Assembly (NCBI GenBank): GCA_020628775.1
Contig: JAHDEP010000004.1
Location: 1,445-42,804, forward strand
Direction of reading: 5' to 3'
Length of the DNA: 41,360 bases
Source of the DNA: Rhizobiaceae bacterium
GTDB taxonomy: Bacteria > Pseudomonadota > Alphaproteobacteria > Rhizobiales > Rhizobiaceae
Part shown: positions 11,334 through 15,802 of the stretch, piece after piece
Layout of the letters: every line of letters begins with the position of its first letter
How positions within the stretch are numbered: position 1 is the first letter of the stretch
Made by a program: the position numbers and the translations under genes
Notes under the pieces: generated by a model
Database searches by the model: none
What the model was told of the DNA's origin: nothing
What the model saw: only the letters and a program-made list of their open reading frames with translations

Positions 11334-11636
11334 ATGTCTAAGAAAATTGTTGGTGCATCTGCACTTGCTGGCGCAGTAGCTATGGCTCTTTCAGGTGCAA
11401 CTTTGGTTGCTTCTACAACTGGTGCATCTGCTGCTAAAGAAAAATGCTACGGCGTTTCACTAGCTGGTAAAAACGACTGTGCTGCTGGTCCAGGTACATC
11501 ATGTGCAGGTACTTCTACAGTTGACTACCAAGGCAATGCTTGGAAATCAGTTGAAGCTGGTACATGTGTATCAATGGCAGTACCTGGCGATCGTAAAGGT
11601 TCACTTGAGCCTCTAACACGTGACCTTCCAGCTTAA
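11334..11636 (+). CDS. bufA: Bufferin precursor BufA1 (DUF2282)
   Basis: A 100-residue precursor of the DUF2282 family, the substrate class of bufferin clusters, which are ribosomally made, post-translationally modified copper-binding peptides. It begins with a signal peptide ([21 protein letters not shown]) ending around ASAAKEK, so the product should be exported by Sec. Four cysteines follow at 38, 49, 57 and 78 in the contexts [20 protein letters not shown] and AGTCVSM, the usual BufA1 layout. In the characterised Caulobacter system, cysteines of this set become thiooxazoles; which ones change here is inference. A strong AAGGAG lies 7 bases before the ATG, and codon choice looks like a highly expressed gene. 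First in the bufABC-DoxX operon. Confidence 0.9.
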
Positions 11637-11673
11637 TAATTAGGCTCATTGTTTGTCAGATAGGAGTGATGAG

Positions 11674-12600
11674 ATGTTGAATGCCACCCCCCGGCCTATC
11701 CCAGCTGATCATGAATATCTGGCAGAGTGTTCGGTTCCTGCAAGAGCGGGAGCCGGACTCAAAGGCCAGCATGTCGACGACATCTTATCTGATGAATATA
11801 AGATGGGTTTCTTTGAAGTCCATGCTGAGAACTACATGGGCGAGGGCGGTTTACCGCATCAGGCGCTCACCGAAATTCGAAATAATTTCCCTATAACTGT
11901 ACATGGCGTTGGTCTTTCCATCGGTTCTGAAAAAGGTCTTGATAAAGATCATATCGAACGTTTGGCAAAGGTTGTTGATCGCTATCAGCCTGGCATAGTG
12001 TCAGAACACCTGGCCTGGTCCACCCACGATAATCATTATTATAATGATCTTTTGCCGGTGCCATATGATCAAGCAACTTTGGATCGCGTGGTTAGCCATA
12101 TCGGGCAAGTGCAGGATAGGTTGAAACGTCCAATATTACTTGAAAATCCATCCACTTATGTTGCGTTTGAACAATCAACCATGAGTGAGACAGATTTCAT
12201 CACAGAAATCGCTCGACGCGCGGGCTGTGGCCTGCTGCTGGACATCAACAATGTCTTTGTTTCAGCGACAAACCACAAATATAGCCCCGAGAAATATCTA
12301 TCTGAGTTTCCACTTGGTCATGTTGGTGAGATCCACCTTGCGGGCCATGCTGAGGATAAAGACGATGATGGCGAGACATTGCTTATTGATGCACATGATC
12401 GCCCGGTTGCTGATGAAGTTTGGAAACTTTATAAAGACGTTGTGACCCAAATGGGGCCTATTCCAACCTTGATTGAATGGGATAATGATGTGCCCGAATG
12501 GCGTATCTTACGTCGCGAAGCGAAAATTGCTGAAGCAATCTTAGATGCAGTTCCAGAGCATCCATTATTGGGAGAGCGTCATGCCAGCGCGGCTGAGTGA
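11674..12600 (+). CDS. bufB: MNIO-family bufferin maturase (DUF692)
   Basis: A multinuclear non-heme iron oxidative enzyme (MNIO, DUF692) predicted to modify cysteines of the BufA precursor in the cytoplasm before export. The family's acidic and His metal-ligand motifs appear in order: FFEVHAENYMG, VHGVGLSIGS, VSEHLAWS, LLENPSTYV, LLLDINNVFVSATNH, GEIHLAGHAED, IDAHDRPV and TLIEWDND. I choose ATG 11674 because AGGAG lies 7 bases upstream, giving 308 aa. The track start (TTG 11653) lies ahead of that site. The gene begins 37 bases after bufA and overlaps bufC by 20 bases, so coupled translation is likely. The substrate is assigned from the adjacent DUF2282 gene. Confidence 0.92.
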   Translation: MLNATPRPIPADHEYLAECSVPARAGAGLKGQHVDDILSDEYKMGFFEVHAENYMGEGGLPHQALTEIRNNFPITVHGVGLSIGSEKGLDKDHIERLAKVVDRYQPGIVSEHLAWSTHDNHYYNDLLPVPYDQATLDRVVSHIGQVQDRLKRPILLENPSTYVAFEQSTMSETDFITEIARRAGCGLLLDINNVFVSATNHKYSPEKYLSEFPLGHVGEIHLAGHAEDKDDDGETLLIDAHDRPVADEVWKLYKDVVTQMGPIPTLIEWDNDVPEWRILRREAKIAEAILDAVPEHPLLGERHASAAE

Positions 12601-13399
12601 GTTGTCCGACGAATACAACGTTACTCAAGATACGTTTTCATCTCTACTACTTGATCCTGAAATCCCGTGTCCAAAAGGCTTGGTCAGTCCATCTGGCAAG
12701 GCGGATGCCAAAAGGTTTTCAGTTTATCGCAACAATGTGGTTGTCGGTTTAACCGGTGCATTGGCGGATATTTTTCCAGCCATACAAAGACTACTTGGTG
12801 AAGAAGCGTTTATGTCGCTCGCAAGGCTTTTCGTTGCAGATAATCCGCCAACTTCACCGTTAATGTTCAAATATGGTGCTGGTTTTGCAGAGTTTTTAGA
12901 AGCGTTTGAACCTTTAGCAAACTATCCTTATCTTGGCGATGTCGCGCGGATAGAACGTTTATGGCTTGATTGTTTTCATGAAGCAGATGCGCCACCTCTT
13001 GCATTGGATGCGCTTGCTGCATTCCCGCCGGAAAACCTGGGCGATATCGTATTTGAAAAACATCCAGCTGTGCGACTATTTTCCAGTCAGTTTGCAGCTG
13101 TTTCAATCTTTTCTGCCAACCGTCAAAGTGCAGCGATGGACGGTATCGATCCTGCCGCTGGGGAAGATTGCTTGATTTCAAGACCGGATGCACAAGTTGA
13201 TGTTCGGCAGATACCGCAAGCTGCGACACTATTTTTCCAAACGCTATTTGATGGTCACACATTGGGTGAAGCGGCAAATGCTGCGAGTAATCTTGATGCT
13301 GAATTTGATATTTCAATGGCGATTTCAACAATGCTTGAGGCCGGTATTTTCTCAAGCTGCAAAATAAACAACGAAGATCTGGGTGAAACTGGACAATAA
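12581..13399 (+). CDS. bufC: Bufferin maturation partner (DUF2063)
   Basis: A 272-residue DUF2063 protein, the usual partner of DUF692 enzymes. The N-terminal half carries the family pattern RFSVYRNNVVVGLTGALADIFPAIQRLLGEEAF and the PYLGDVARIERLW segment. The C-terminal ~80 residues (LFFQTLFDGHTLGEAANAAS ... AISTMLEAGIFSS) look like a PqqD/winged-helix-type domain, which in RiPP systems can hold the precursor's leader; that role is inference. ATG 12581 is preceded by GGGAGAG and lies inside the end of bufB. The track start at 12545 would extend the overlap and has no better ribosome site. It probably works as a complex with BufB. Confidence 0.88.
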   Translation: MPARLSELSDEYNVTQDTFSSLLLDPEIPCPKGLVSPSGKADAKRFSVYRNNVVVGLTGALADIFPAIQRLLGEEAFMSLARLFVADNPPTSPLMFKYGAGFAEFLEAFEPLANYPYLGDVARIERLWLDCFHEADAPPLALDALAAFPPENLGDIVFEKHPAVRLFSSQFAAVSIFSANRQSAAMDGIDPAAGEDCLISRPDAQVDVRQIPQAATLFFQTLFDGHTLGEAANAASNLDAEFDISMAISTMLEAGIFSSCKINNEDLGETGQ

Positions 13400-13420
13400 T
13401 ATTACAGTAAGGGCGACAAA

Positions 13421-13999
13421 ATGAATGGACTAATCAAACTTATACGCAATCTGCACGATGGCGTTTTTAACTTTATCACACGCATCACAGAGGGTTGGTT
13501 TCTCGGGCTTTTTGCTCGCTTCACTTTTGTTGCCGTCTTATATGGTTATTATTTCAACTCCGCGCTGACGAAAGTCAAAATTGACGAACTTGGCATTCTC
13601 GGGTTTTTCCAAATCTCAGACGGTGCTTATTTCCAGATCGCAATGCCTGCGGTTGAAGCTGCCGGGTTTGATCCTTCAGCGGTCGCATTTTTCCCGCATG
13701 GCCTTATCGTTTTCTTGGGAACTTATGCCGAATTTATCCTCCCTGCGATGATTGTCATCGGACTGTTCTCACGCGTTGCGGCAGCCGGCATGATTGGCTT
13801 TATCATCGTGCAATCGCTCACAGATGTGTTTGTGCACAATATTGGCGCTGAAAGCACTGGCGCTCTGTTTGATCGCTTCCCAGATTCTCTGATTATGGAT
13901 CAGCGTTTGCTTTGGATCTTTGTTCTTGCTGTTATCGTGTTGAAAGGCGCTGGCAAGGTTTCGGTAGATCATCTGCTATCGAAGCGCGCATCAACCTAA
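13421..13999 (+). CDS. DoxX-family membrane protein of the bufferin operon
   Basis: A 192-residue integral membrane protein of the DoxX type with about four hydrophobic segments: GLFARFTFVAVLYGYYF, FFPHGLIVFLGTYAEFILPAMIVIGLF, AAAGMIGFIIVQSLTDVFV and LLWIFVLAVIVLKGAG. DoxX proteins are regular companions of bufABC genes; their biochemical role there is unsettled, with redox or quinone-linked functions suggested for the wider family. The gene starts 21 bases after bufC and ends just before a strong terminator, making it the last gene of the unit. No cysteine pair for direct thiol chemistry is visible. Confidence 0.85.
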   Translation: MNGLIKLIRNLHDGVFNFITRITEGWFLGLFARFTFVAVLYGYYFNSALTKVKIDELGILGFFQISDGAYFQIAMPAVEAAGFDPSAVAFFPHGLIVFLGTYAEFILPAMIVIGLFSRVAAAGMIGFIIVQSLTDVFVHNIGAESTGALFDRFPDSLIMDQRLLWIFVLAVIVLKGAGKVSVDHLLSKRAST

Positions 14000-14059: not shown

Positions 14060-14105
14060 GCTTCGACCTTTTTTGGGGAGGAGGAGGGAGGGAGGCCGAA
14101 GATCA
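14060..14105. repeat. GA-rich tract between bufferin operon and hsp20
   Basis: After the bufferin terminator the plus strand reads TTTTTTGGGGAGGAGGAGGGAGGGAGG, flanked by CTTCGACC and GGCCGAAG, which are inverted repeats with one mismatch. The run of G blocks could form a G-quadruplex on the plus strand, and the minus-strand side is C-rich. It may end hsp20 transcription, but that is unproven. Confidence 0.5.
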
Positions 14106-14120
14106 AATTTTCTATGTCAA

Positions 14121-14594
14121 TTAAGCTTTTGCTTCTTCAATCTGCTTGGTTTCTGAAGTCGCACTTGGCGCTGCTGAAATTGCAATTTTACGCAATTTCT
14201 TTTCTTCAGGTACTTCACGAACGAGATCGATGTAGAGCAAGCCGTTTTTCAAGTTAGCGCCATGAATATGCATGTGCTCTGCAAGTTGGAAACGACGCTC
14301 AAACGCGCGGGTTGCGATGCCGCGATGTAGATAAGTTGCCTCATCTTGCTCATCGGACGTTGCTTTCTCGCCGCGGATTGTCAGTGTGTTCTCGCGTGCT
14401 TCAACATCTAGCTCGTCTTCTGCAAAGCCGGCGACAGCCATTGTGATGGTGTAAGCATCATCTGCGGTGCGCTCGATGTTATATGGCGGATATGATTTGG
14501 TTTGTTCAGGCTGGCCGAGGCTATCTAGCATTGTAAATAGACGGTCGAAACCAACTGTTGAACGATAAAAAGGTGAAAAATCTACGTGACGCAT
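14121..14594 (-). CDS. hsp20: Small heat-shock protein Hsp20 (IbpA type)
   Basis: A 157-residue alpha-crystallin-domain chaperone that holds unfolding proteins in the cytoplasm for refolding by DnaK/ClpB. The N-terminus DFSPFYRSTVGFDRLFTMLD and the segment YPPYNIERTADDAYTITMAVAGF are typical of bacterial class A proteins. The crystallin domain covers about residues 40-130 and includes RGIATRAFERRFQL and the A-x(3)-GL motif ANLKNGLLYIDL. A short charged tail follows. Regulation is unusually readable: a near-consensus RpoH promoter and a folded leader hiding the GGAG ribosome site lie upstream. The gene ends in front of a GA-rich tract and faces the bufferin operon. Confidence 0.95.
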   Translation of the reverse strand: MRHVDFSPFYRSTVGFDRLFTMLDSLGQPEQTKSYPPYNIERTADDAYTITMAVAGFAEDELDVEARENTLTIRGEKATSDEQDEATYLHRGIATRAFERRFQLAEHMHIHGANLKNGLLYIDLVREVPEEKKLRKIAISAAPSATSETKQIEEAKA

Positions 14595-14695
14595 GTGTGT
14601 TCTCCATTGAGCAACTAGTGTTTTGCGTTAGCAATATTGATCCCATTTTTGGCAATCAATTTGCGGTTATTACAGACCCGTTATTGGCGTCTGTA
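14595..14695 (-). promoter_or_regulatory. ROSE-like RNA thermometer in the hsp20 leader
   Basis: The roughly 100-base leader folds into successive hairpins when read on the minus strand. First is ACAGAC/GTCTGT (14672-14694). Second is a long helix GCAAATTGAT/ATCAATATTGC (14631-14664). Last, next to the start codon, is GTTGCTC-AATG-GAGAAC (14599-14615), in which GTT/AAC and CTC/GAG pair around one bulged G. This last hairpin sequesters the GGAG ribosome site 7 bases before ATG. A TTGCT motif with an extra G opposite the Shine-Dalgarno sequence is the hallmark of ROSE elements that control rhizobial small heat-shock genes. Temperature response is inferred. Confidence 0.8.
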
Positions 14696-14701
14696 GACTA
14701 T

Positions 14702-14730
14702 AGATGGGGAGCAAATTTTGGCTTTTCAAG
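14702..14730 (-). promoter_or_regulatory. RpoH (sigma-32) promoter of hsp20
   Basis: Read on the minus strand, CTTGAAA, a 14-base spacer and CCCCATCT match the classical heat-shock promoter consensus almost exactly. Transcription would begin near 14695, which is where the first leader hairpin starts. Confidence 0.88.
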
Positions 14731-14857: not shown

Positions 14858-15802
14858 ATGAGTACAATACTATTTTCATCGCCCGGAAATCCGGTCCCTG
14901 AAGATCACAAAGCGGGATATTTCACCGGGTGTGATGGGCGCCAATTACGCTACGCTTTGTTTCGATCAACGGGTCAGAATGCAAAGGGTACGATCGTGCT
15001 TTTGCAAGGTCGGAATGAATGTATTGAAAAGTATTTTGAAACCATCAAAAATTTCACCGAAGCTGGATTTTGGGTCGCAACTTTTGACTGGCGAGGTCAG
15101 GGTGGTTCGGAACGTATTCTGCGCAATAAAAAGCGTGGTTTTGTCAGACGTTTTCGGCATTTCGAAGATGATCTAAAGATCTTTTTAGAGCAAGTTGTAT
15201 TGCCTGATGCGCGCATTCCGTTTTATGCGATTGCCCATTCAATGGGTGGATTGATCTTGCTATCCGCATCACCGAACATTGCCAATCGAATTGATCGAAT
15301 TGTTTTGTTAGCACCGTTTATTGGCACCCATATTTCAGGTTTTAAGCTCTTTGTGACAAAGTTTTTACTTAATCTGCTCAATGGGATCGGATTGGGGTCT
15401 TTACCAATTATAAGACGCAAGCAAGCGGCAGAAGAACGATTTAGAATTCTTACCTCCGATGAAAAGCGCTTTGTGCGTAATGATAAGATTTTCGAAAATT
15501 ATCCCGAATTTGAAACAGGTGTTCCGACAATCAAATGGTTGCTATTGATGTTTAGAGCCATGAAGCAGGTGAATAAGCAAGAACATTTAGAACGCATTAC
15601 CATCCCGACAATTATCATGGGTGGAAGTCATGATGGCATCGTCCCGTTTGAAGCTTTTGAGGATGTCAGCACAAAATTCCGCGCAGGTCAGTTAATCCCA
15701 TTTGATGGTGCGCGGCATGAGCTTATGACTGAAATTGACATCTATCGTGAGCCCACGCTTGCCGCAACGATCGCGTTTTTCACCAAGCCTGAAGAAGATT
15801 AG
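14858..15802 (+). CDS. Alpha/beta hydrolase, lysophospholipase-like
   Basis: A 314-residue serine hydrolase of the lysophospholipase/monoacylglycerol-lipase (PldB-like, Hydrolase_4) group. The nucleophile elbow is AIAHSMGG, the oxyanion region FDWRGQGGSER, the acid residue lies in GGSHDGIVP and the His in DGARHELMTE. No signal peptide is visible, so it is probably cytoplasmic or membrane-associated. The natural substrate is not readable from the sequence; a glycerolipid or lysophospholipid is likely from the family. The ATG at 14858 is retained without a strong ribosome site. Its last 4 bases overlap the end of the convergent beta-barrel gene. Confidence 0.85.
   Translation: MSTILFSSPGNPVPEDHKAGYFTGCDGRQLRYALFRSTGQNAKGTIVLLQGRNECIEKYFETIKNFTEAGFWVATFDWRGQGGSERILRNKKRGFVRRFRHFEDDLKIFLEQVVLPDARIPFYAIAHSMGGLILLSASPNIANRIDRIVLLAPFIGTHISGFKLFVTKFLLNLLNGIGLGSLPIIRRKQAAEERFRILTSDEKRFVRNDKIFENYPEFETGVPTIKWLLLMFRAMKQVNKQEHLERITIPTIIMGGSHDGIVPFEAFEDVSTKFRAGQLIPFDGARHELMTEIDIYREPTLAATIAFFTKPEED

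Follow-up and report, generated by a model that had tools for sequence, protein, structure and literature searches.

The hsp20 gene in the analysed window, a 41,360-nucleotide stretch of a Rhizobiaceae genome, very probably (about 90%) stands behind a chromosomal ibpA/hsp20 control region that would combine two heat-responsive layers, an RpoH (sigma-32) promoter and a ROSE-type RNA thermometer in the mRNA leader (Table 1). The IbpA-like product, assigned to Pfam HSP20, shares 56% identity with IbpA and 39% with IbpB of E. coli in pairwise alignments, and the structured leader is part of the gene's 5' UTR, the position occupied by ROSE elements. The closest relatives of the source genome, itself a MAG, are two MAGs, with a protein identity of 94%.

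Table 1. Features of the hsp20 control region and its neighbours (window coordinates)
Feature	Position	Strand	Basis
hsp20 gene, encoding an IbpA-like small heat-shock protein of 157 aa	14121-14594	(-)	Pfam HSP20, E 9.2e-21
Outer clamp over the start codon: ACGCA (14628-14624) paired with UGCGU (14593-14589)	14589-14628	(-)	Predicted MFE fold, 34-50 C
Putative thermosensor hairpin GUU-G-CUC-AAUG-GAG-AAC, bulged G14612	14599-14615	(-)	Fold, alignment, covariation; ROSE motif UUGCU against the Shine-Dalgarno (SD) sequence
Shine-Dalgarno GGAG	14602-14605	(-)	Sequence; ATG 7 nt away
Leader helix II, long, GCC..GGG core	14631-14664	(-)	Fold and family covariation
Leader hairpin I (UACAGACgCC..GGGUCUGUA), bulged G	14671-14695	(-)	Fold and family covariation
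Whole leader, match to covariance model R1	14586-14701	(-)	69.1 bits, E 9.9e-17
RpoH (sigma-32) type promoter CTTGAAA-N14-CCCCATCT	14702-14730	(-)	Exact consensus match
alpha/beta hydrolase gene	14858-15802	(+)	Divergent to hsp20

The promoter reads CTTGAAAAGCCAAAATTTGCTCCCCATCT and fits CTTGAAA-N14-CCCCATNT exactly, in line with the RpoH-type pattern CTTGAA(A)-N13-15-CCCCATNT. This exact pattern occurs once in the window and in none of 100 window shuffles, with 0 matches expected by chance. A looser version (CTTGAAA-N12-15-CCCCAT) is found once per genome in the source and its two closest relatives, always before hsp20, and twice in the fourth-closest genome. Nearly all of the 71 family leaders inspected upstream of orthologues carry an RpoH-type promoter; the best matches begin with CTTGAAN or CTTGACG, have a 14-base spacer in 61 leaders and end in CCCATCT/CCCAAAT-like (CCCAWMT-like) -10 boxes, scoring 11-15 of 15 against 8-12 in shuffled sequence. 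The CTTGAAA-N14 promoter proposed in a first-pass annotation is thus borne out, both by its exact match and by its conservation across the family. A search of the minus strand for a sigma-70 promoter of hsp20 found none. The genome encodes rpoH (TIGR02392 positions 53-269, E 3.5e-87), as a partial, sub-cut-off match in a fragmentary assembly, and two relatives have rpoH above the TIGR02392 cut-off. Judged by sequence, the hsp20 promoter would be used by RpoH, with a plausible transcription start near 14695, 3-8 nt past the -10 box.

For the resulting leader of 107 nt, the predicted fold at 37 C starts with hairpin I, continues with a long helix and ends in a hairpin that contains the SD sequence. 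In the latter, GUUGCUC pairs with the SD strand GAGAAC around a single bulged G (14615-14599). This corresponds to the published hallmark of ROSE elements, an imperfectly paired U(U/C)GCU that blocks the SD sequence in the 3'-proximal hairpin (PMC3669281), and the element therefore qualifies as ROSE. The SD hairpin motif occurs only once in the window, where ~0.05 occurrences per strand would be expected. The order of elements described at first pass, a hairpin, a long helix and a final hairpin hiding GGAG opposite one bulged G, was recovered in full in the fold. The hiding of GGAG holds in part: GAG is paired opposite G14612, but the first G of the motif sits unpaired in the loop.

The energy of the fold carries little weight. 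The leader reaches -30.3 kcal/mol (z -2.8 against dinucleotide shuffles, of which 2 of 200 were equally good), and because 16% of G+C-matched windows fold as stably, fold energy was set aside as weak evidence. The same figure would suit a leader that follows a real promoter but is a fixed structured 5' UTR, acting on mRNA stability or damping basal translation with no thermometer at all, as would the predicted opening of the SD sequence, just 2% at 42 C. This interpretation is nevertheless improbable, since the core of the SD hairpin and its bulged G are kept with compensatory changes in nearly all family leaders, and this core is identical to the motif by which ROSE elements were shown to sense heat (PMC3669281).

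The evidence for these compensatory changes comes from an alignment of 48 leaders of the same family (A2), from which the window's own genus was left out; it was built in place of a MAFFT alignment containing the window (A1), because circularity was to be avoided. RNAalifold recovered the same three helices from these 48 leaders, which lies within the two to four covarying hairpins of ROSE elements. Two-sided changes occur in 13 of the 19 pairs. Paired cells make up 94.2% (81.3% in shuffles), and none of 500 shuffles reaches the covariation score of 0.448 (0.204 when shuffled); in slid controls, pairing drops to ~50%. One pair of hairpin I is seen as all six standard pair types. In helix II, where 82% of cells are paired, the inner five pairs all show two-sided changes. 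The SD hairpin is the most uniform, with 99.7% of cells paired and a Y-R pair that appears as U-A (20 leaders), C-G (16) or U-G (12) and is never broken, and GUYGCU is present in all 71 family leaders. Conservation in the alignment peaks at the SD sequence and the start codon. This peak also argues against the very improbable reading that the conserved leader serves transcriptional attenuation or an antisense role, for which stable hairpins early in the leader could be cited; no U run follows these hairpins, and no intrinsic terminator was called on the minus strand in the region.

The downstream end of hsp20 has features of its own. A G-rich tract (ggggaggaggagggagggagg, 14073-14094, plus strand) lies between convergent 3' ends, and no intrinsic terminator was called there. 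The tract is flanked by arms resembling CTTCGGCC/GGTCGAAG, and it recurs in two relatives with differing run lengths. Beyond it, consecutive genes at 11334-13999 on the plus strand encode a small Cys-containing DUF2282 peptide, an MbnB/TglH/ChrH (DUF692) enzyme, a DUF2063 partner and a membrane protein; we take these genes to resemble a bufferin-type RiPP cluster.

A covariance model built from the 48 leaders (R1), and hence from no member of the genus, has the window leader as its sole match in the source genome. Within the family, 101 of 111 genomes contain a match to R1, almost always a single one; of eight genomes in the order's other families, one does. In the 3 kb ibpAB region of E. coli K-12, R1 matches the leaders of ibpB (E 9e-8) and ibpA (E 7e-6), which establishes kinship with accepted ROSE elements, although the R1 scores partly reflect letters in common at unpaired and coding positions, for example AUGCGU. 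In Lonsdalea and Sodalis loci (L034, 1976-2069; L020, 1947-2090), R1 matches lie ~30-180 nt downstream of the matched gene and probably precede a second, ibpB-like gene, an arrangement also seen in E. coli. A second hsp20 gene in the source genome (G000:C317, locus L055, ~1410-1469) has a shorter ROSE-like leader that lacks the long middle helix and consists of a hairpin (CAGACGCC..GGGUCUG) and an SD hairpin (GUUGCUU..GAGGAC); a weaker promoter-like stretch (CTTGTAA..CCATATCT) precedes it. R1 did not recognise this second leader. Taken together, family covariation, the U(U/C)GCU/SD core with its bulged G and a model that recognises the E. coli ibpA ROSE support the earlier proposal that a ROSE-like thermometer with an RpoH promoter is the best reading of the region.

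Rfam gives a different picture. At the gathering threshold, the leader has no Rfam match. At a relaxed threshold, RF00435 (Rfam ROSE) scores 23.6 bits, short of its threshold of 45, and the match is misaligned, with the model placed on the middle helix instead of the SD hairpin. Annotation pipelines would therefore miss the element. Among 20 loci scanned from relatives, only the hspA-type L018 and L040 pass the RF00435 threshold. This score represents one curated model and no defining trait of the class, and the E. coli ibpA leader itself is called by ROSE_2 (RF01832, 100 bits), not by RF00435. The window leader and RF00435 (Bradyrhizobium/Agrobacterium hspA type) share the SD core UUGCUC-4 nt-GAG with its bulged G, as well as a GCC..GGG first hairpin and an outer helix over AUG; the SD hairpin of the window is shorter. 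E. coli ibpA has in common with the window a sigma-32 type promoter (CTTGAAA-N13/14-(A)CCCATTT), a multi-hairpin leader with an SD hairpin, the ATGCGT start and the R1 match, but differs in its UCGCU/AGGAG core and reaches only 22 bits with R1.

The proposed control would proceed as follows. RNA polymerase containing RpoH would start transcripts ~3-8 nt after the CCCCATCT box, and the leader would act as a ROSE-type thermometer made of two stable upstream hairpins and an imperfect SD hairpin, with an outer clamp closing over the start codon. The ribosome-binding site would be hidden at growth temperature; upon heating, the weak SD hairpin would open and ribosomes could enter. The sequence analysis shows the promoter match, the structure, the covariation and the relationship to known ROSE elements, and from these, use of the promoter by RpoH, melting, thermoregulation and translational control are inferred. 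The predicted probability of a wholly free GGAG is ~0.1% at 25 C, 1.1% at 37 C and 2.1% at 42 C, a small opening in absolute terms, from energy models that are poor on non-canonical ROSE pairs. Deletion of the bulged G brings the predicted opening to zero at all temperatures, and the earlier expectation that its removal locks the hairpin is thus matched by the thermodynamic prediction. Up to 30 C, the MFE structure predicted for a longer transcript replaces the SD hairpin by other pairings, in which the SD sequence is still paired.

The predicted outer clamp, absent from the first-pass annotation, has a counterpart in the Rfam ROSE consensus, where an outer helix likewise covers the start codon. 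Just upstream of the anti-SD strand, 58 of the 71 leaders carry a stretch of 4 nt or more that is Watson-Crick complementary to AUGCGUC, where shuffling would give 23; the leaders are related, so these cases are not independent. Codon 2 of hsp20 (14589-14591, minus strand) is CGT in all 30 family genes checked, while the remaining Arg codons of these genes are 69% CGC and 18% CGT. This choice fits the clamp, but weak structure may also be favoured at gene starts in general, and the T of CGT falls outside the four-pair version of the clamp. On a tentative and less probable reading, the family leader could be a ROSE subclass of its own that Rfam does not contain. Its start codon would be latched apart from the SD sequence (CGCA upstream of the anti-SD with AUGCG), and CGU at codon 2 would be kept for the sake of the RNA; the result would be a thermal latch in two parts, which might also be read by Hsp20.

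Reading by Hsp20 could go further. The leader may mainly bind Hsp20 itself, as with E. coli IbpA, so that the protein represses its own synthesis until aggregates titrate it away and heat acts by titration more than, or as well as, by melting. The product is IbpA-like, with the 56% identity given above, and the Arg of GIATRAFERRFQ and the Tyr of YPPYN align with R93 and Y34 of E. coli IbpA, residues reported to be required for self-repression or associated with it, and to be conserved in alpha-proteobacteria (PMC10474464). This reading is nonetheless rather unlikely: self-repression has been demonstrated for gamma-proteobacterial IbpAs only, and is more likely an addition to the thermometer than a replacement of it.

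Transcription by RpoH combined with a ROSE-type thermometer has clear precedents. P. putida ibpA is under sigma-32 and ROSE control (PMC3669281), the ROSE leader of S. meliloti ibpA was detected by RNA sequencing (PMC2873474) and the gene is rpoH-dependent (PMC3989490), while in A. tumefaciens the promoter of hspL depends on RpoH (PMC2885654). The ibpA-type small heat-shock genes of S. meliloti and M. loti (PMC2873474, PMC3989490) are rhizobial relatives of the same gene kind with a ROSE leader, rpoH-dependent in S. meliloti; they belong to a different genus from the window. The short ROSE of Pseudomonas ibpA (PMC3669281) shares sigma-32 transcription, ROSE control of translation and a short SD hairpin with the window, but has two hairpins in ~62 nt in place of three in ~100 nt. 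Given the published cases in P. putida, S. meliloti and A. tumefaciens, the window element is an unlisted case of a known kind.

The first-pass annotation was wrong in holding that both layers are rarely this plain in a leader, as nearly all sampled family leaders of this gene show them, and E. coli ibpA as well. With R1 matching 101 of 111 genomes and the promoter in nearly all 71 leaders, this layout is the norm of the family and no rarity. The element is genuine but ordinary, an unlisted addition to the established ROSE and RpoH arrangement, which is already standard for hsp20 in Rhizobiaceae and E. coli and will hold little surprise for the specialist. What the analysis points to is that sigma-32 transcription with ROSE control of translation is near-universal for ibpA in this alphaproteobacterial family. 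The curated ROSE model overlooks this branch, so that a covariance model specific to the family would be the way to recover the element in nearly every genome.
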